This document shows, one piece after another, positions 27,231 through 39,363 of a stretch of DNA of 64,000 nt. How positions within the stretch are numbered: the first letter of the stretch is position 1; every line of letters begins with the position of its first letter. The notes under the pieces were generated by a model, which had not been told where the DNA came from, did not search any database, and was given only the letters and a program-made list of their open reading frames with translations. The position numbers were made by a program, and so were the translations under genes. The stretch comes from Arcobacter sp. (lineage in GTDB: Bacteria > Campylobacterota > Campylobacteria > Campylobacterales > Sulfurimonadaceae): contig JAGXFN010000015.1 in NCBI GenBank assembly GCA_024637195.1, forward strand, positions 62,001 through 126,000. The letters run 5' to 3'.

Positions 27231-27245
27231 TCTTAAACGCCTTGT
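27211..27245 (+). other. Probable prophage attachment site (attL) in the rnpB 3' end
   Basis: The integrase stop codon lies at 27233, directly after the rnpB P1 helix, the usual arrangement when a tyrosine integrase inserts into the 3' end of an RNA gene and restores it. The duplicate copy (attR) would be at the other prophage end, which is outside the window, so the core cannot be delimited here. Confidence 0.45.
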
Positions 27246-28354
27246 TTTAGGGCTTTATTTACTGTCTCTTTCTCAACTGTAGCGGTATTGTAGCGGAAGA
27301 GAGAAAAATCAGGTCCTAAATCAATGTTCTTGACATTGATAATACTTGCATAATGTTCCAGTGTGATCTTTGGGCTTGAGTGTCCAAGCAAACCGGCAAG
27401 CTCGTTTATGCTTACAACGTTTTCTTTTAGCATAAACGTCGCGAATGTATGGCGTGTGCAATACATCTTAAACCTTCTTACACCACTTTTTTCCAAAATA
27501 TTCAACCAAAAGTATCTCAACTTAAGCGCGTCATCGATGTCTCCAAAGATGAACAGCTGCTTTGGATCTTGAAACTTTTTTACTTCATCAAGCAGATAAG
27601 CCGGGTAGGGAACTTTTCTCAGGGCGTTGTTTGTCTTTCCTGATCCGAGCATCCCCTTTGTCCTGGTCCGCCTGATGTGGATGAAACCGTCATCCTTGAA
27701 GTCACCGATCTGCAGTCCCAATATCTCGCTGACGCGCATACCTGTGTTAAATGCGATCATCAGGTACGGTACCATCACACCGGTGGCCGCATCCATGATC
27801 TTTGTGACTTCATCGCGTAAGAAGTACTGCACATCTTTTCTGACGTCCTGCTTGAGCTTGATGCTTAGTGCCGGATTGAAGCTTATCACACCGTCATCAA
27901 CGGCAAGCTCGAACACCTCTTTGATGCAGCTCTTGTATGCGCCTTTTGATTTAGACAGCATATCAAGTGAATTAAGATACTGTTTTACTTCCAGCCGGGT
28001 GATCGAATCGATCTCGCGTCCTTTGAAGTGCTCTATCGCTCTGAGCCAGTAGCCTTTCTTCAGATGGTACGTCTTGTTGCTGTCTCTGTGTTCTAAAAAT
28101 ATACGGCCGTAGTGATCAAATGTCTTAGGCTTTTTCTTGTATATCTCACCTGTAGCGATCTTCATGTCAAGTTTTGGAATGATCTGTTCGGTAACTATTT
28201 TTATATTTTGAGGAGTGTTTTTCAGCTTCGCAGATTTCAGGAATCTCTTTCCCTCAACGTAGTAGCTAAGCCAGATAGTCTTTCCTCTGATATAGTAGCT
28301 AGTCATCTTCTTGGTACTCCTTTTGGGAGTAACAGTCTTACTGTGCGTTGACAT
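27233..28354 (-). CDS. int: Tyrosine integrase
   Basis: The product is 373 residues. It has an N-terminal arm-binding type domain, a SAM-like core-binding domain (about 85-165) and a catalytic domain. The first catalytic arginine is in NTGMRVSEILGL, the second arginine in YCTRHTFATFML, and the C-terminus has GHSSPKITLEHYASI with the His and nucleophilic Tyr. The position normally written HxxR reads YCTR, so the first histidine is a tyrosine. It catalyses insertion and excision of the prophage, very probably at rnpB. An AAAAAGG site lies before the ATG. Confidence 0.95.
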   Translation of the reverse strand: MSTHSKTVTPKRSTKKMTSYYIRGKTIWLSYYVEGKRFLKSAKLKNTPQNIKIVTEQIIPKLDMKIATGEIYKKKPKTFDHYGRIFLEHRDSNKTYHLKKGYWLRAIEHFKGREIDSITRLEVKQYLNSLDMLSKSKGAYKSCIKEVFELAVDDGVISFNPALSIKLKQDVRKDVQYFLRDEVTKIMDAATGVMVPYLMIAFNTGMRVSEILGLQIGDFKDDGFIHIRRTRTKGMLGSGKTNNALRKVPYPAYLLDEVKKFQDPKQLFIFGDIDDALKLRYFWLNILEKSGVRRFKMYCTRHTFATFMLKENVVSINELAGLLGHSSPKITLEHYASIINVKNIDLGPDFSLFRYNTATVEKETVNKALKQGV

Positions 28355-30487: not shown

Positions 30488-31195
30488 TTATTGTTTAAAA
30501 TCCATTTTGTATTCTTTATTTATATATGTGAACAAATCAATCGCTCCATCTTTTGTTTGTTCCATATAGTTCATTACTTTATCTGCTTCATTCGTGTTAA
30601 GATGCTTTCGCCCTTTATATTTGAATAATTCAAGTAATATCCCCGTCATTGGACGTTTCATCTCTGATACCTTCTTGTACAACTCTTTATAAAGGTTTGA
30701 TGTTATGTTTGGGTTGTTAAGCTCAGCATGTTTTTTTTCAATAAGTTCGTATAGGGGGTCCAGATAATTATTAAGGTTACTTTTTTGAACTTCTAGAATA
30801 ATAGAGGCAACCTCATTTGCTTGATCATGGAGATATAATATATTTCTTCTAAGTGCGGTCTTTGTTTCTTCTTCTTTATGGCTTTGTGCTTGCTTGATTG
30901 ATTTTATCATAGCAATAGAAGCCATGAATGCAGAAATTAATATAGCAAAGGCTGAGAACAATGCAATTCTACTCGTCGGAACATTCGCAATTAGAAGGAG
31001 TATTATTAATATTGTAAAAGCTCCAATACCCCACAACATAATTAAGGACATTGTGGTCAAGTCTTTATTTTTGAAAGCTGTTTTAATAAAATCAATTTGC
31101 ATAGTGTGAACATCTTTGTAGTATTCAGATATGTTCTGTAATATGTAATGGAGTGAAAGAAGAATGGCACAAATGATTATTAATTGTAAAATCAT
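30488..31195 (-). CDS. Membrane protein of unknown function
   Basis: The product is 235 residues with a first hydrophobic helix at about 3-20, two strong helices at about 50-72 and 78-98, and then a long soluble helical domain rich in charged residues. It lies immediately before the exported nuclease gene on the same strand (20-base gap). The layout, a membrane hairpin plus cytoplasmic domain, is seen in several effector and exclusion proteins, but I do not recognise a family. Confidence 0.65.
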   Translation of the reverse strand: MILQLIIICAILLSLHYILQNISEYYKDVHTMQIDFIKTAFKNKDLTTMSLIMLWGIGAFTILIILLLIANVPTSRIALFSAFAILISAFMASIAMIKSIKQAQSHKEEETKTALRRNILYLHDQANEVASIILEVQKSNLNNYLDPLYELIEKKHAELNNPNITSNLYKELYKKVSEMKRPMTGILLELFKYKGRKHLNTNEADKVMNYMEQTKDGAIDLFTYINKEYKMDFKQ

Positions 31196-33568: not shown

Positions 33569-33713
33569 CTTTTTCCCGTTAAACGTTTTATGAAATACCT
33601 GTTGGTATCTCAACAAAAAGTTTCAGATCATACTTCGCTTTCATAACGCCGCCAGATGAGTAAAGGAAGCTTGCGATAGGTATGGTCTCTTTTTCATAGG
33701 GAGAATGTTAGGG

Positions 33714-33787
33714 TGGGGACTGCAGGATTCGAACCTGCGACCTTAGATGTACAAAATCTACGCTCTGACCAACTGAGCTAAGCCCCC
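33714..33787 (-). tRNA. tRNA-Thr, anticodon UGU
   Basis: All four arms pair: acceptor GGGGGCT/AGTCCCC (one G-U), D-stem GCTC/GAGC, anticodon stem TAGAT/ATCTA with loop TTTGTAC (anticodon TGT at loop positions 34-36, A37), and T-stem GCAGG/CCTGC with TTCGAAT. The length is 74 with discriminator A. CCA is not encoded; the bases after the discriminator read CCC. It would decode ACA and wobble codons. It lies at the head of the leftward minigene operon in the prophage. Confidence 0.88.
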
Positions 33788-34722: not shown

Positions 34723-35005
34723 TCATCAAGCAACCATAAAGTCATAGTTAATAAAAACCAGAAAAACCATACATCCATTTACTTTCCTTTGTGCTCTTAG
34801 TGCCGTGCGAACACGACACCTTAGAACATTCAACTGCACATTTATTCCAGCGTCCGTTGACGACGCTTCCCGCTTCCGCTCGAATATGTACGGGGATCAT
34901 TTGAAAACGGCCTCTTATTTACCTGCGAGAGCTGCCGCTGAAAAGTCAAAAAACACTCCAATCCTTATCCCGATTCTTTGGCCGGGATGGATTGGATTTG
35001 AAAAT

Positions 35006-35020
35006 GATACTATCTGTGTC
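35006..35020. promoter_or_regulatory. Repressor operator copy, upstream site at sce7726
   Basis: GATACTATCTGTGTC fits the dyad GAYAC-N5-GTRTC. It is the exact reverse complement of the site at 39116-39130 beside the Cro-like gene. Confidence 0.7.
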
Positions 35021-35040
35021 ATTAAAGCAAACTTAATAAA

Positions 35041-35055
35041 GACACATTTAGTATC
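35041..35055. promoter_or_regulatory. Repressor operator copy, promoter-proximal site at sce7726
   Basis: GACACATTTAGTATC has the same dyad form, and its centre is 35 bases from the centre of the upstream copy. It covers the -35 position of the promoter whose -10 is at 35063, so binding would block transcription. Confidence 0.7.
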
Positions 35056-35062
35056 ATTATGC

Positions 35063-35068
35063 TATACT
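35063..35068 (+). promoter_or_regulatory. Extended -10 promoter of the sce7726 gene
   Basis: TGC followed by TATACT; the -35-like AAGACA at 35039-35044 lies 18 bases upstream within the operator. Confidence 0.55.
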
Positions 35069-35104: not shown

Positions 35105-35782
35105 ATGCAGAGTATGACAGAAGCAGACAAGATCAAGATTGCATTATTTAAAAAGATAGCCAAAGAAATTAAGGGGAATTACATCGCCGTTCCGGAAGTG
35201 TCTTTACCTGGAAGTGTCGCAGATATGTTGGTCACAAATGGTGATATTCATATTTATGAGATTAAATCAAAGGCTGATTCATTATCTCGTATAAAAAAAC
35301 AAATAGAGAGCTATAAAAAACATGCTCACCGTGTTACAATAGTTGCAGATAGCAAGTTTATTCAAAAGCTTAAAGAAGCACCTTATATGGAAGGAGTAGG
35401 GCTTATTGAAGTAACAAGCCGTTATCAGCTTAATTCTATAGATGAAGCTTATAAGAATAATAATGTTTATTCTGAAAATTACTTGGCATATTGGGCGCCG
35501 ATTGAAATAAGAGAAACACTTAGAGGTTTCCCTGGGTGGTACAAGTATGATACTTCAGAGGCTAAGGCAAAATTACTTGATCTACTATCTGAAGATGAAC
35601 TAAGGCGCTTGACAATTTTTAGAATTAAGCAAAAATATGAGGAAGAATTCTGGAAGCGTATGGATATGATTGAAAGTAAAGGGTTTAAAGAAGCTCTTAG
35701 CTCACGGTTTGATGATTTAGGTAAATTACGTATTACTCCACTACTTGATATTCCAGTTTATGTATTTAGAGAGTTTTTTTAA
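35105..35782 (+). CDS. sce7726 family protein, PD-(D/E)XK nuclease-like
   Basis: The product is 225 residues. Near the N-terminus VPEVSLPGSVADMLV is followed by IYEIKSKADSLSRIKKQI: a Glu, an Asp and an ExK in the spacing of a PD-(D/E)XK nuclease core, and also the hallmark of the sce7726 family. The C-terminal half is helical and unassigned. It is probably a DNA or RNA endonuclease, but activity is inference. GGAG lies eight bases before ATG 35105. The promoter carries two copies of the phage operator. The stop overlaps the stop of the convergent beta-family gene by 4 bases; sce7726 genes are commonly paired with sce7725/beta-type genes. Confidence 0.78.
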   Translation: MQSMTEADKIKIALFKKIAKEIKGNYIAVPEVSLPGSVADMLVTNGDIHIYEIKSKADSLSRIKKQIESYKKHAHRVTIVADSKFIQKLKEAPYMEGVGLIEVTSRYQLNSIDEAYKNNNVYSENYLAYWAPIEIRETLRGFPGWYKYDTSEAKAKLLDLLSEDELRRLTIFRIKQKYEEEFWKRMDMIESKGFKEALSSRFDDLGKLRITPLLDIPVYVFREFF

Positions 35783-37155
35783 AGCCTTGCTATTGTGACA
35801 CCATTATGTTTCATACACTGTGTCTTTGCTTTAGCTAAACCCATAGATTCTATTGTGTATAGGCATGCGCATGCCTCACAGTGCTCAGGATCAAGATAAG
35901 ATTTGTCAACCTTGTCATCTTTTATATAAAATTCTAATAGATGATTCATTGATTTCTTTGTTGACTGTGTACCACGTTCTGATTCCACTTTTACCTTGTA
36001 AATACATATTTTTTTAGCATCTTTATTTTGTAAAAGATAGAGCGATGCATTAGGTATCATTCCGGGGATAAAAGATGTGGCAGTATTTCTGTCGTAGCCA
36101 CAATAATCTGCAAACCATATATTTTTAATGTTGTGTCTCTGCAGTCGTAAATACCCTGATAGAGCTATATTTTCGAAGTAATTATCGCCATATTCTCTTT
36201 TGATATTTTCATAATCTGCACTCTCTTTGGCATATATTATTTGTGGGATATGACCACGTTTTTGTAAAGAGTTTAGTATAGAGATTTCTTTGCCCTCTTT
36301 TATACCGTTGAATTCAAGAATGATATAGCTTTTATCTAAAAGAGATGTGAAAGGATCAAGGTAGGAACTGATGTGAGTATGAAAGTTTTCCATGTTCATA
36401 ACTCTAAATACAATAGTGCCGAAATGTTCTAAAATTGTTTTTACAAAGAAAAGGTAATTGCTGTCAGCTGGGGTAGATGTGTCTATTCTACAAGTTGGAA
36501 TGATGGGAAGGCATGCAAATAGTTTCTTATAGTGAAATATCTTTTCTTCTGCAGAGGCAGGAGTATATATTTCGTCTGGAAGATCTGGTTTATTGGGGGA
36601 CTTTCTTTTTTTATTTCGTATTGACTTTATTTCATCCCGATGCGCTCTATTCCTCATTATCTCTAGATCATAAAGATCAAGGAAATGTGGCTTAAGAAAG
36701 TTGTCTTTTCTATATTTTTGTATGTCACCATCCTTTCGAACATCGATAAGTGGATAGATAGTCTTATTTGCATTGTTATGCACGGCATCAATGATAGTAA
36801 AAATTGTGTCTGTATATTTTAATATAGGGGTGTAGGTAGGCATAAACCCACGCGTAAATGGAGAATGGTTGTTATGCTCATCAACTTCAATAGATGGAAG
36901 AATTGGAAGTGTGGGAACAGATGATGAAAGTATGTAGTCTATTCCAAATAGGTTAAATGAGGTATTTAATTCATAATCTATCTTGTCGTGTGTAAAGTTA
37001 AAGGTTGTTCGTGATGTTGCGCCAATAGGTGTAGCTGAACTGAGGTTAGGAGGGGATAAAATACCATGGAATATGGTGGTTCCCTCGAGAATCACTCTAA
37101 CGCGTGTGTCATTATAACTCGCTACCTGTATCATTTTTTGAATAATTTTGTGCAT
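35779..37155 (-). CDS. Beta-family (sce7725-like) protein
   Basis: The product is 458 residues, soluble. Residues about 104-140 (YTPILKYTDTIFTIIDAVHN, then PLIDVRKDGD) match the opening of beta-family proteins, which normally read YxPxLK..x..A..PLxE. A TIM-barrel-like body with alternating strands and helices follows, and the last 50 residues carry the cysteine cluster CEACAC and a further Cys. Here there are about 100 extra residues before the usual start. The function of the family is unknown; members accompany sce7726 proteins in mobile DNA. It is the last gene in the leftward unit with the repressor. Confidence 0.65.
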   Translation of the reverse strand: MHKIIQKMIQVASYNDTRVRVILEGTTIFHGILSPPNLSSATPIGATSRTTFNFTHDKIDYELNTSFNLFGIDYILSSSVPTLPILPSIEVDEHNNHSPFTRGFMPTYTPILKYTDTIFTIIDAVHNNANKTIYPLIDVRKDGDIQKYRKDNFLKPHFLDLYDLEIMRNRAHRDEIKSIRNKKRKSPNKPDLPDEIYTPASAEEKIFHYKKLFACLPIIPTCRIDTSTPADSNYLFFVKTILEHFGTIVFRVMNMENFHTHISSYLDPFTSLLDKSYIILEFNGIKEGKEISILNSLQKRGHIPQIIYAKESADYENIKREYGDNYFENIALSGYLRLQRHNIKNIWFADYCGYDRNTATSFIPGMIPNASLYLLQNKDAKKICIYKVKVESERGTQSTKKSMNHLLEFYIKDDKVDKSYLDPEHCEACACLYTIESMGLAKAKTQCMKHNGVTIARL

Positions 37156-37162
37156 ATTACCC

Positions 37163-37918
37163 CTACTGTAAGTCGTTGTTGATTTTTGAACTAAACAGTA
37201 AACCGTATTTTTTAAGACTAATCTCTAAAACAGGAGTTGACACGTGAAAAAATTTTTTTATCAGTGTTGCTGAGATACTTTGATTGTCTGGGATACGTTC
37301 AAGAAGTCTTTCCAAAATAGCTCTTGGTACGAGAAGTTGTCCGGCAAATTCATTTGCCTCTGCTTCTATTGTGTTGGTCGTAGTGGTATTTCTTGCCGCT
37401 TGCATGACAGGTTGATAGTTTGTACTATTTGTCGGTAATGCTGAACCGCCTATATGCTCATCTATAAAGACCGAGTCAATGCCAGTTGAAAAATGTACAA
37501 AAACATGTCCAAGTTCATGAGCAATTGTAAACTTATCTCGTACAGGCTGAGTTGCCTTATAGGTTATTCTAATAGTTTCTCCATCAAATTCACATTTACC
37601 TATATCGCCTTGAAGATCATAATTTTGGTCTATTTTAAACCCAAAATATTCCGCTATATAAAAAGGATCTATTGGTCCAAAGTGCTCTTTAGTATAGATA
37701 AGTTCTATGATATCAGCAGGTGATGTAATGTGTTGTGGTACAGTTTCTTTAAAAGATTCGATAATGATTTTTTGTTTTTTTTTCATAAGATTTGAAAGTA
37801 GTTGATTATCTTGATTGTATATAAACCGCATTAGTTTGTCACTACCTGGATTTTCTATCTGTTCAAGTAGCTGTTTAGTGTCATGTATCTGTTCATTGAT
37901 ATTTTGTAGCTCAGTCAT
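37163..37918 (-). CDS. ImmA/IrrE family metallo-endopeptidase
   Basis: The product is 251 residues. The zinc-peptidase motif is FTIAHELGHVFVHF at about residue 128, with a downstream Glu in EAEANEFAGQLLVPRAIL as third ligand; both are complete. The first 60 residues are a helical extension. Family members cleave phage or ICE repressors (ImmA of ICEBs1) or act as stress regulators (IrrE). In this operon, downstream of the repressor gene, it could process the repressor or a partner protein. The following beta-family gene starts 7 bases later, and its own start overlaps the DUF6932 gene by 8 bases. Confidence 0.88.
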   Translation of the reverse strand: MTELQNINEQIHDTKQLLEQIENPGSDKLMRFIYNQDNQLLSNLMKKKQKIIIESFKETVPQHITSPADIIELIYTKEHFGPIDPFYIAEYFGFKIDQNYDLQGDIGKCEFDGETIRITYKATQPVRDKFTIAHELGHVFVHFSTGIDSVFIDEHIGGSALPTNSTNYQPVMQAARNTTTTNTIEAEANEFAGQLLVPRAILERLLERIPDNQSISATLIKKFFHVSTPVLEISLKKYGLLFSSKINNDLQ

Positions 37919-38387
37919 GTGTAATCTCTATCAACCCTTTTGGGTTTGCGTTACGGTCTCGTCCAAACCATTTACGCCAGTAATCTATATGCTTCTGTAT
38001 TGTATCATAGTGTTCATGATCCGCTGGGACAACAACAACAATATAGCCATCAATATTGTACTTTCGTTTTGTCTCACCTACTGAATGGTTCATGTCAAAT
38101 AGGGCCAGATGATCGTCTAGGTCAGAAATATCGATGAAGTTAACAACATCAATATCTGATGGATTTGGCTTTAGAGTGGTAAAACTACCATCCATCCATT
38201 GCTTGAGAGGATGGCTTAGACAAGCATTTAAGTCAGCGTTATAGCGTTCAAACTCCTGCCATCTTTTTCTTCGTATATTTGTGTCATTAAGTTGTAACAC
38301 AAATTCTTGTTCACATTCTTGTAGCGTAAGTGGGATAAGTGCATAAGGGATTGGATTTTTGTATTCATCAAAACTTACTTTTTTCAA
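37911..38387 (-). CDS. DUF6932-like, nucleotidyltransferase-fold protein
   Basis: The product is 158 residues. The central motif WMDGSFTTLKPNPSDIDVV has the G-S-x9-D-x-D pattern of minimal nucleotidyltransferases and matches the DUF6932 type (usually WIDGSF.T....P.DID). The C-terminus KGLIEI also fits that family. Residual catalysis, for example nucleotide addition to a protein or tRNA, is possible but unproven. It starts at a TTG placed directly after the repressor stop codon (TAATTG), so it depends on translation of the repressor. It overlaps the ImmA/IrrE gene. Confidence 0.65.
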   Translation of the reverse strand: MKKVSFDEYKNPIPYALIPLTLQECEQEFVLQLNDTNIRRKRWQEFERYNADLNACLSHPLKQWMDGSFTTLKPNPSDIDVVNFIDISDLDDHLALFDMNHSVGETKRKYNIDGYIVVVVPADHEHYDTIQKHIDYWRKWFGRDRNANPKGLIEITHD

Positions 38388-39032
38388 TTATTCGCCCACA
38401 AGTCTTAATCGTGCTGCACGGTTATTGAACTTGAGCTTGTTTACGGCCACGACCTTGACGAGTTTGAGGGCGTCCATCTCGTCATCGTCTATGCGGAGGA
38501 TGCGGGCCTTGAAGTCCGGGGATGAGTTGTAGGGCTTGAGGGAGATGATGCCCGCCTCTTCGTTTCGCACGAAGACCTTGACGGCGCTCTCACCGTGGAG
38601 GGTGTAGTGAACCATGTCGCCGTGCTGCACCTGGGCCGATGGATTGCATATGATCTCATCACCGTCCTCGATGTCGGGGGCCATGGAGTCGCCGCTAGCT
38701 ATGACGCAGTAGAGATCGGCGGCGAAGTTGTCGCCGTTGTAATAGCAGAAGCGCCCCTTCTGATCATGGCTTACCTCAGTAGATCCGCAGGACGCCGTTC
38801 CGACTACGGGGATTCTTGCCACAGGAATGGTTTCGTGATCGTTAAATAAATCTTCTACTCCAACCTTCAACACAGCAGCTAAGGCCTTTATACGCTTATC
38901 ATCTTTCGGCCAACGTATGCCGTTTGACCAATTTGTTACAGCTGATCTCGTTATCCCTAATTTTTCTGATATTTCAGCTGCAGTGATATTATTTTGTTTC
39001 ATATATTTTTTAAGATTATCGGCAAAAGCCAT
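38388..39032 (-). CDS. LexA/CI-type phage repressor (HTH + S24 peptidase)
   Basis: The product is 214 residues. The N-terminal XRE helix-turn-helix is ITAAEISEKLGITRSAVTNW. The C-terminal S24 self-cleavage domain has the catalytic serine in ASGDSMAPDIEDGDEI and the lysine in GESAVKVFV. The expected cleavage site is the Cys-Gly in VGTASCGSTEV, as in UmuD, rather than the Ala-Gly of LexA and lambda CI. RecA-stimulated self-cleavage would induce the prophage. Three operators lie between it and the Cro-like gene; one covers its own -10, implying autoregulation. Confidence 0.92.
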   Translation of the reverse strand: MAFADNLKKYMKQNNITAAEISEKLGITRSAVTNWSNGIRWPKDDKRIKALAAVLKVGVEDLFNDHETIPVARIPVVGTASCGSTEVSHDQKGRFCYYNGDNFAADLYCVIASGDSMAPDIEDGDEIICNPSAQVQHGDMVHYTLHGESAVKVFVRNEEAGIISLKPYNSSPDFKARILRIDDDEMDALKLVKVVAVNKLKFNNRAARLRLVGE

Positions 39033-39057: not shown

Positions 39058-39072
39058 GATACTAATTGTATC
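39058..39072. promoter_or_regulatory. Operator O1 (perfect dyad) over the repressor -10
   Basis: GATACTAATTGTATC is a perfect GATAC-N5-GTATC palindrome. The minus-strand hexamer TACAAT (39065-39070), a good -10 for the repressor gene, lies within it. Confidence 0.75.
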
Positions 39073-39081
39073 TTCATATAT

Positions 39082-39096
39082 GACACAGTGAGTATC
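39082..39096. promoter_or_regulatory. Operator O2 in the repressor/Cro intergenic region
   Basis: GACACAGTGAGTATC, same dyad, centred 24 bases from O1. Confidence 0.72.
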
Positions 39097-39115
39097 ATAT
39101 TAAGCAATAATTAAA

Positions 39116-39130
39116 GACACAGATAGTATC
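39116..39130. promoter_or_regulatory. Operator O3 next to the Cro-like gene
   Basis: GACACAGATAGTATC, centred 34 bases from O2 and ending eight bases before the Cro-like ATG, so it must cover that gene's promoter. Confidence 0.72.
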
Positions 39131-39138
39131 ATTACCGC

Positions 39139-39363
39139 ATGAACACTATTAAAAATGCACTCAACACAATTTATGCCCCGTCATCGGTAAGGGCAATCCT
39201 TAACGGAAAACGACGGCCTGTCCTCGAAAAGGCTATAGAGTTGAGAGACAAATTTTCTATTCCAGTTGATGCTTGGATGGATATTAAGTCTTATATAAAG
39301 AATGATACAAAAGAAGCTGCTTCACAATCTAATACAAATCCAGAAAAAAAGGTATCCGCATGA
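39139..39363 (+). CDS. Cro-like regulator
   Basis: The product is 74 residues. The first 40 form an abbreviated HTH (IYAPSSVRAILNGKRRPVLE), and the tail is polar. It is divergent from the repressor across a three-operator region, the classical Cro position, and probably competes for the same operators. No ribosome-binding site precedes the ATG, which is eight bases from O3, so the message is likely leaderless or nearly so. Its stop overlaps the next start by 4 bases. Confidence 0.7.
   Translation: MNTIKNALNTIYAPSSVRAILNGKRRPVLEKAIELRDKFSIPVDAWMDIKSYIKNDTKEAASQSNTNPEKKVSA

Follow-up and report, generated by a model that had tools for sequence, protein, structure and literature searches.

A candidate Gop-beta-cII relative in a prophage repressor operon, with predicted CI operators upstream of its nuclease-like gene

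Four AT-rich genes lie directly against the repressor gene of a prophage in the stretch of DNA analysed here (the window, 64,000 nucleotides). What do these genes form together, and how are they connected to the lysis-lysogeny switch beside which they are placed? The features of the locus are as follows.

35006..35020, + strand: predicted CI-type operator GATACTATCTGTGTC, upstream of sce7726
35041..35055, - strand: second predicted CI-type operator GATACTAAATGTGTC, overlapping the promoter-like site of sce7726
35105..35782, + strand: gene of an sce7726-family protein, a relative of P4 cII with a predicted nuclease fold; ATG at 35105
35779..37155, - strand: gene of a beta-like protein of 458 aa; 7-bp gap to the M78 gene
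37163..37918, - strand: gene of an M78 (ImmA/IrrE) metallopeptidase; 8-bp overlap with the DUF6932 gene
37911..38387, - strand: gene of a DUF6932 nucleotidyltransferase-like protein; TTG start immediately after the stop of cI (0 bp)
38388..39032, - strand: gene of the CI repressor (HTH and S24 self-cleavage domain), the first gene of the operon; PF00717 6.7e-17, PF01381 4e-9
39058..39130, no strand assigned: predicted cI-cro operator region with sites at 39058 (GATACTAATTGTATC, 1 mismatch), 39082 and 39116
39139..39363, + strand: Cro-like small HTH gene, divergent from cI; weak HTH_3 match

When the coordinates were re-checked, the gene map of the first-pass annotation (positions, strands, the 8-base overlap, the 7-base gap and the overlapping stops) proved to be exact. 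The TAA of sce7726 and the stop codon of the beta-like gene have TTAA in common, which gives a tail-to-tail overlap of 4 bp. A longer sce7726 reading frame starting at 34805 is unsupported. The same annotation had described the cassette as AT-rich and as built into the prophage control region, and both statements hold: the GC content is 35.0%, compared with 50.1% for cI and 49.6% for the remaining prophage to the right, and the cassette adjoins an S24-type cI with a divergent Cro-like gene. The Cro-like product is 42% identical over 55 aa to the product of a gene in L032, and its homologue is the small gene adjoining cI in L028/L032. The prophage begins at or near the integrase gene (27233-28354) and extends past the end of the window. 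A tRNA-Thr gene (tgt) is located at 33712-33787, between the integrase gene and the cassette. Two-TM proteins with SAIAILISAxxAS-like segments are encoded in the matching region of both this prophage (30488-31195, with a weak SLATT-like match) and the prophage in L028 (9356-9997, 10844-11560 and 11600-12472). The IMG/VR record L002 was rejected as an independent case and counted as the same contig, because over 13.4 kb the identity is 100% and the record would start at window base 27233.

Of the family labels assigned on the first pass, DUF6932 (PF22014), M78 (PF06114) and sce7726 (NF033832) were found again by direct profile matches, and beta by profile-profile comparison only. The sce7726 protein matched NF033832 of NCBIfam with an E-value of 2.9e-25 (89 bits, above the cut-off of 70) and the PADLOC model 'cll' with 5.1e-22. 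This model represents cII of Gop-beta-cII, and P4 cII itself scores 3e-113 against it. Phage P4 cII was also recovered by tblastn with sce7726 as query. These matches indicate that sce7726 is a relative of P4 cII and that the two belong to one NCBIfam family. Residues D40, E52xK54, D58 and Q66 were invariant in all of the 12 sce7726/cII proteins aligned, P4 cII among them. The AF2 model of sce7726 (core pLDDT about 90) matched 3dnx (E 4.7e-6), followed by SfsA and NucS/EndoMS. The best match, 3dnx, is an uncharacterised protein that we take to be MmcB-like, and the similarity was moderate (TM-score 0.43 by query length). The model points to a PD-(D/E)XK nuclease fold with an intact D...ExK...Q motif, and the protein is a predicted nuclease; the conserved E52 and K54 lie within this fold, as had been anticipated. 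It had also been suggested that the nuclease is the effector. This is not established, because in the related Gop-beta-cII system the known toxin is the product of the first gene, Gop, with beta as its antitoxin.

The 458-aa protein gave no direct family match in Pfam, NCBIfam, PADLOC or PHROGs, and no match to PF14350 or to PADLOC beta at E<=1. Nothing was retrieved by tblastn against phages and plasmids, and the AF2 model (pLDDT 45.9) was too poor for a fold search. When the six-member beta-like family was compared with six beta/sce7725 proteins by hhalign, a match was obtained (Prob 96.8, E 2.8e-10) in which residues 107-457 of the beta-like protein were aligned against the whole length of beta. 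The tail-to-tail arrangement with sce7726 also supports the beta identity, as does the presence of a bona fide beta in the corresponding sets of prophage L097 and five Campylobacterales genomes. The earlier label was therefore right in substance on the profile-profile match, and the protein appears to be a diverged relative of P4 beta and PD-lambda-2C with an N-terminal extension of about 106 aa. (Weak matches of the beta-like and DUF6932 searches in G043, G449, G481, G005, G006 and similar were left out.) By its cII family and by the beta profile match, the cassette can be classified as a probable divergent, rearranged four-gene relative of the anti-phage system Gop-beta-cII of P4, in line with the defence-type system proposed on the first pass. 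The P4 system gives protection from both lambda and P1, and its Gop protein is toxic when beta is absent (PMC9122126). In P4, gop-beta faces cII, tail-to-tail as in this locus.

The M78 protein matched PF06114 (3.6e-11) and PADLOC capP (3.7e-15), and its profile found CapP 7t5t (3e-10) and IrrE 3dte in the PDB. The HExxH motif and the third ligand are intact, with H134, E135, H138 and E185 invariant in the aligned M78 proteins. An Xre HTH fused to M78 is absent here: the M78 domain was found alone, and the match to PD-Lambda-2_B (E 5e-4) covers the peptidase part only. A peptidase with an intact HExxH in the cI operon might belong to an ImmA-ImmR-like module, in which M78 would cleave CI or another repressor and thereby induce the prophage, and repressor cleavage was the role favoured by the first-pass annotation. 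This reading was demoted because CI itself is a self-cleaving repressor of the S24 type, with an ASCGS cleavage region, the serine of GDSM and the lysine of VKVF, and because the M78 gene accompanies beta/cII in loci without a repressor; we regard it as quite improbable. Since single-stranded DNA activates the related peptidases PprI and CapP (PMC10904395), M78 is a plausible sensor.

The product of the first gene matched PF22014 with 6.2e-29 and PADLOC PDC-M63A with 5.2e-22, and the nucleotidyltransferase motif GSF..DID is kept (G67, S68, D78 and D80 invariant). It resembles Gop in position only, not in sequence. No gene for a Gop-type small TM/coiled-coil toxin lies ahead of beta in this locus, where the slot is occupied by DUF6932. 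DUF6932 fills this slot here and in G085, and elsewhere the same place is taken by a two-TM coiled-coil protein (a TM protein in G502, L028, L030, L031 and five Campylobacterales loci). Since either of the two can stand ahead of an otherwise recurring set, the first gene is best described as an exchangeable slot. MNT-type nucleotidyltransferases are often antitoxin-like, and DUF6932 could be antitoxin-like instead of a toxin. In the coliphages mEpX1 and PhiR30_1 and in Erwinia phage 59, genes for DUF6932 and PDC-M63B lie directly behind cI, in the position of rexAB (L005 3812-5220, L003 3917-5271 and L006 3926-5214), and this place is a recurrent lysogenic-conversion slot. In one native-host test, no defence could be measured for PDC-M63AB, a pair containing DUF6932 (PMC12409345). 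With PADLOC, none of the neighbours tested here matched the PDC-M63B partner.

The first-pass annotation had expected the four-gene set to occur elsewhere. All four genes including DUF6932 were found in G085, behind an integrase gene and near type I restriction genes; in the other loci the first gene is swapped. In G502 a two-TM coiled-coil protein replaces DUF6932. The viral contig L028 has the set with a two-TM protein behind an S24 repressor, the Sulfurimonas MAG L030 has it with a TM gene cut by the contig end, and in L031 the set, again with a two-TM protein, is part of a Tn7-like island that also contains restriction genes. Five Campylobacterales genomes carry cII-TM-M78-beta with a bona fide PF14350 beta, all in the same direction, and prophage L097 carries the same four genes, with a bona fide beta tail-to-tail to cII. 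Altogether the M78-beta-cII set recurred at 12 loci or more. Two layouts were seen, and the contexts, mobile or chromosomal, were of several kinds: genomes of Campylobacterota, a Tn7-like island, an element with an integrase and two further prophages. The cII and beta genes were tail-to-tail in 31 of the 33 loci with both genes and on the same strand in 2, in a tally that consists mostly of viral contigs and omits the five Campylobacterales loci and L057, whose genes are same-direction. Some neighbouring genes were named by eye. In L031 (596-16634) these are TniA/TniB/TniQ-like genes, a C5-methyltransferase gene and restriction and Vsr genes, with the cassette. Four-gene copies of Campylobacterales (L060 6197-8992, L099, L101) lie beside large restriction-modification genes. 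A 376-aa protein adjoining the G502 copy (L022 8701-9831) is DUF4238-like and had no match in PADLOC.

The connection to the repressor was indicated by the operators. The 2.18-Mb genome contains exactly four copies of GATACTNNNTGTGTC, two of them between cI and cro (39082 and 39116) and the other two upstream of sce7726 (35006 and 35041). The four exact copies in the window compare with none in 100 shuffles (expected 0.00). The site at 35041 overlaps a promoter-like AAGACA-18-TATACT (35039-35068); promoter-like matches around this position were no commoner than in shuffles, and the sce7726 promoter is only suggestive. In L028 the palindrome is a different one, AAGTGTAATTNAATTACACTT. Two of its copies adjoin cI and a further two lie ahead of sce7726, with a spacing of 35-36 bp; no other copy was found in the record of 38.6 kb when up to 3 mismatches were allowed. 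The same wiring is thus present with different operator sequences in two prophages sharing only the cro/cI pair and the cassette: in the stretches compared, cro, cI, M78, beta and sce7726 are all that they have in common, and their CI proteins are 31% identical.

In shuffle and permutation tests a shared operator was detected in 2 of the 12 repressor-linked cII loci, this locus and L028, and in none of the other ten, G425/L056 included. Those ten loci rule out CI control of every prophage-borne cII. Operator sharing between cI-cro and the sce7726 promoter is real, but it is not general among repressor-linked loci. Such a low frequency, together with the variable first gene, would fit unrelated morons brought together by chance and without joint function. 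The recurrence of M78-beta-cII over so many loci, layouts and contexts makes this very improbable.

From the shared operators we infer that CI binds to the sites upstream of sce7726, and on the same ground DUF6932, M78 and beta are expected to be on with CI in the lysogen, and the nuclease gene to be off until CI is lost. On this evidence a bacterial immune system seems to be under the direct control of the lysis-lysogeny switch. The first-pass idea that the repressor unit carries control factors, with the nuclease separate, survives in substance, since the nuclease gene has its own putative promoter with repressor operators. The operator pair 35006/35041 is new relative to that annotation, and the regulatory link to CI is the most novel feature of the locus. 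The pair is identical to the one at cro, and with a PD-(D/E)XK fold sce7726 might also be a phage early gene that degrades host DNA or keeps co-infecting DNA out and is run from the early-promoter operators of the phage, the genes of the cI operon being separate morons. However, sce7726 is tail-to-tail with beta outside phages as well (in the Tn7-like island of L031, in the integrase element of G085 and in G502), and the Campylobacter loci with all genes on one strand retain it in the set; this explanation is unlikely.

Our preferred reading, to which we assign a probability of roughly 0.5, is that the cassette is a Gop-beta-cII variant inserted into the immunity operon of a prophage and connected to CI, so that loss of CI aborts infection. 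In the lysogen CI would drive cI-DUF6932-M78-beta, taken as one operon because of the 0 bp gap, as a lysogenic-conversion unit like rexAB behind lambda cI, and would repress the promoter of the sce7726/cII nuclease. DUF6932, with its intact nucleotidyltransferase motif and its Gop position, would be the likely growth-inhibiting component, and beta would keep it in check in the way that P4 beta does with Gop. Because Gop on its own is toxic in P4, the first gene is by this analogy the strongest candidate for the toxin. The M78 peptidase would be the likely sensor or switch. The abortive system PD-lambda-2 includes a protein with an M78 domain and needs its third component, a relative of beta, for defence (PMC9519451), and this pairing supports the idea that M78 and beta act together. 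If CI were inactivated by another phage, by an antirepressor or by DNA damage, the supply of beta would stop and the nuclease promoter would fire, with a transcript running antisense into beta; no strong terminator lies between the genes. The released toxin and/or the nuclease would then abort the infection. That the prophage repressor directly runs an abortive-infection system, with a captured operator pair holding the nuclease off and removal of CI tripping the defence, is put forward tentatively, at somewhat less than an even chance.

If loss of CI arms a toxin, induction of this prophage itself would set the toxin off too, which speaks against the armed-toxin model. In an explanation of the opposite sense, sce7726/cII would be made at prophage induction, and convergent transcription or the product itself would silence the defence operon, sparing the prophage's own lytic cycle. 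The operators, which would put sce7726 on as the cI operon goes off, and the tail-to-tail overlap without a strong terminator are consistent with it. A cII-terminator mutation in P4 reportedly disturbs beta expression, and BstA prophages have a self-suppression element. But if beta is an antitoxin, its silencing frees the toxin rather than silencing it, and cII/beta pairs exist without any CI link; exemption of this kind seems unlikely. With the CI-wired Gop-beta-cII variant as the working model, the locus offers a directly testable case of a lysis-lysogeny repressor controlling a defence nuclease, and makes it testable how prophages stop abortive systems from killing their own induction. It also brings the sce7725/sce7726 pairs, P4 Gop-beta-cII and PD-lambda-2 together in a single modular family, in which the first gene, at the toxin slot, can be exchanged.

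Among known systems, Gop-beta-cII of the satellite phage P4 (Rousset et al. 2022) shares with this cassette an sce7726-family cII, a profile-related beta, the tail-to-tail arrangement, a gene ahead of beta and carriage by a mobile phage element. It differs in that here DUF6932 stands for Gop (TM), an M78 peptidase is added, beta is longer by its N-terminal extension and has diverged too far for Pfam or PADLOC to recognise, and the genes lie within the cI operon, with predicted CI operators on the cII promoter. PD-lambda-2 (Vassallo et al. 2022), a toxin-antitoxin-like abortive defence, likewise has an M78-domain protein beside a beta-related protein; unlike PD-lambda-2, the present locus has DUF6932 as first gene in place of a HigB-like toxin, an M78 without Xre HTH, and cII/sce7726, which is absent from PD-lambda-2. 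The sce7725/sce7726 pair resembles the combination of beta-like and sce7726 proteins, but is a same-strand two-gene pair (e.g. L057), whereas here the two are tail-to-tail and accompanied by M78 and DUF6932. CapH-CapP, ImmA-ImmR and PprI-DdrO have the same M78 metallopeptidase fold with HExxH, but in this locus there is no dedicated HTH substrate gene, the sole HTH neighbour being the S24 self-cleaving CI. The PADLOC candidate PDC-M63 (DUF6932 plus PDC-M63B) is similar in having DUF6932 right behind cI in mEpX1, PhiR30_1 and Erwinia phage 59. The locus is, on these comparisons, a prophage-wired variant of Gop-beta-cII that pairs M78 with beta as PD-lambda-2 does and places DUF6932 behind cI as the PDC-M63 phages do.
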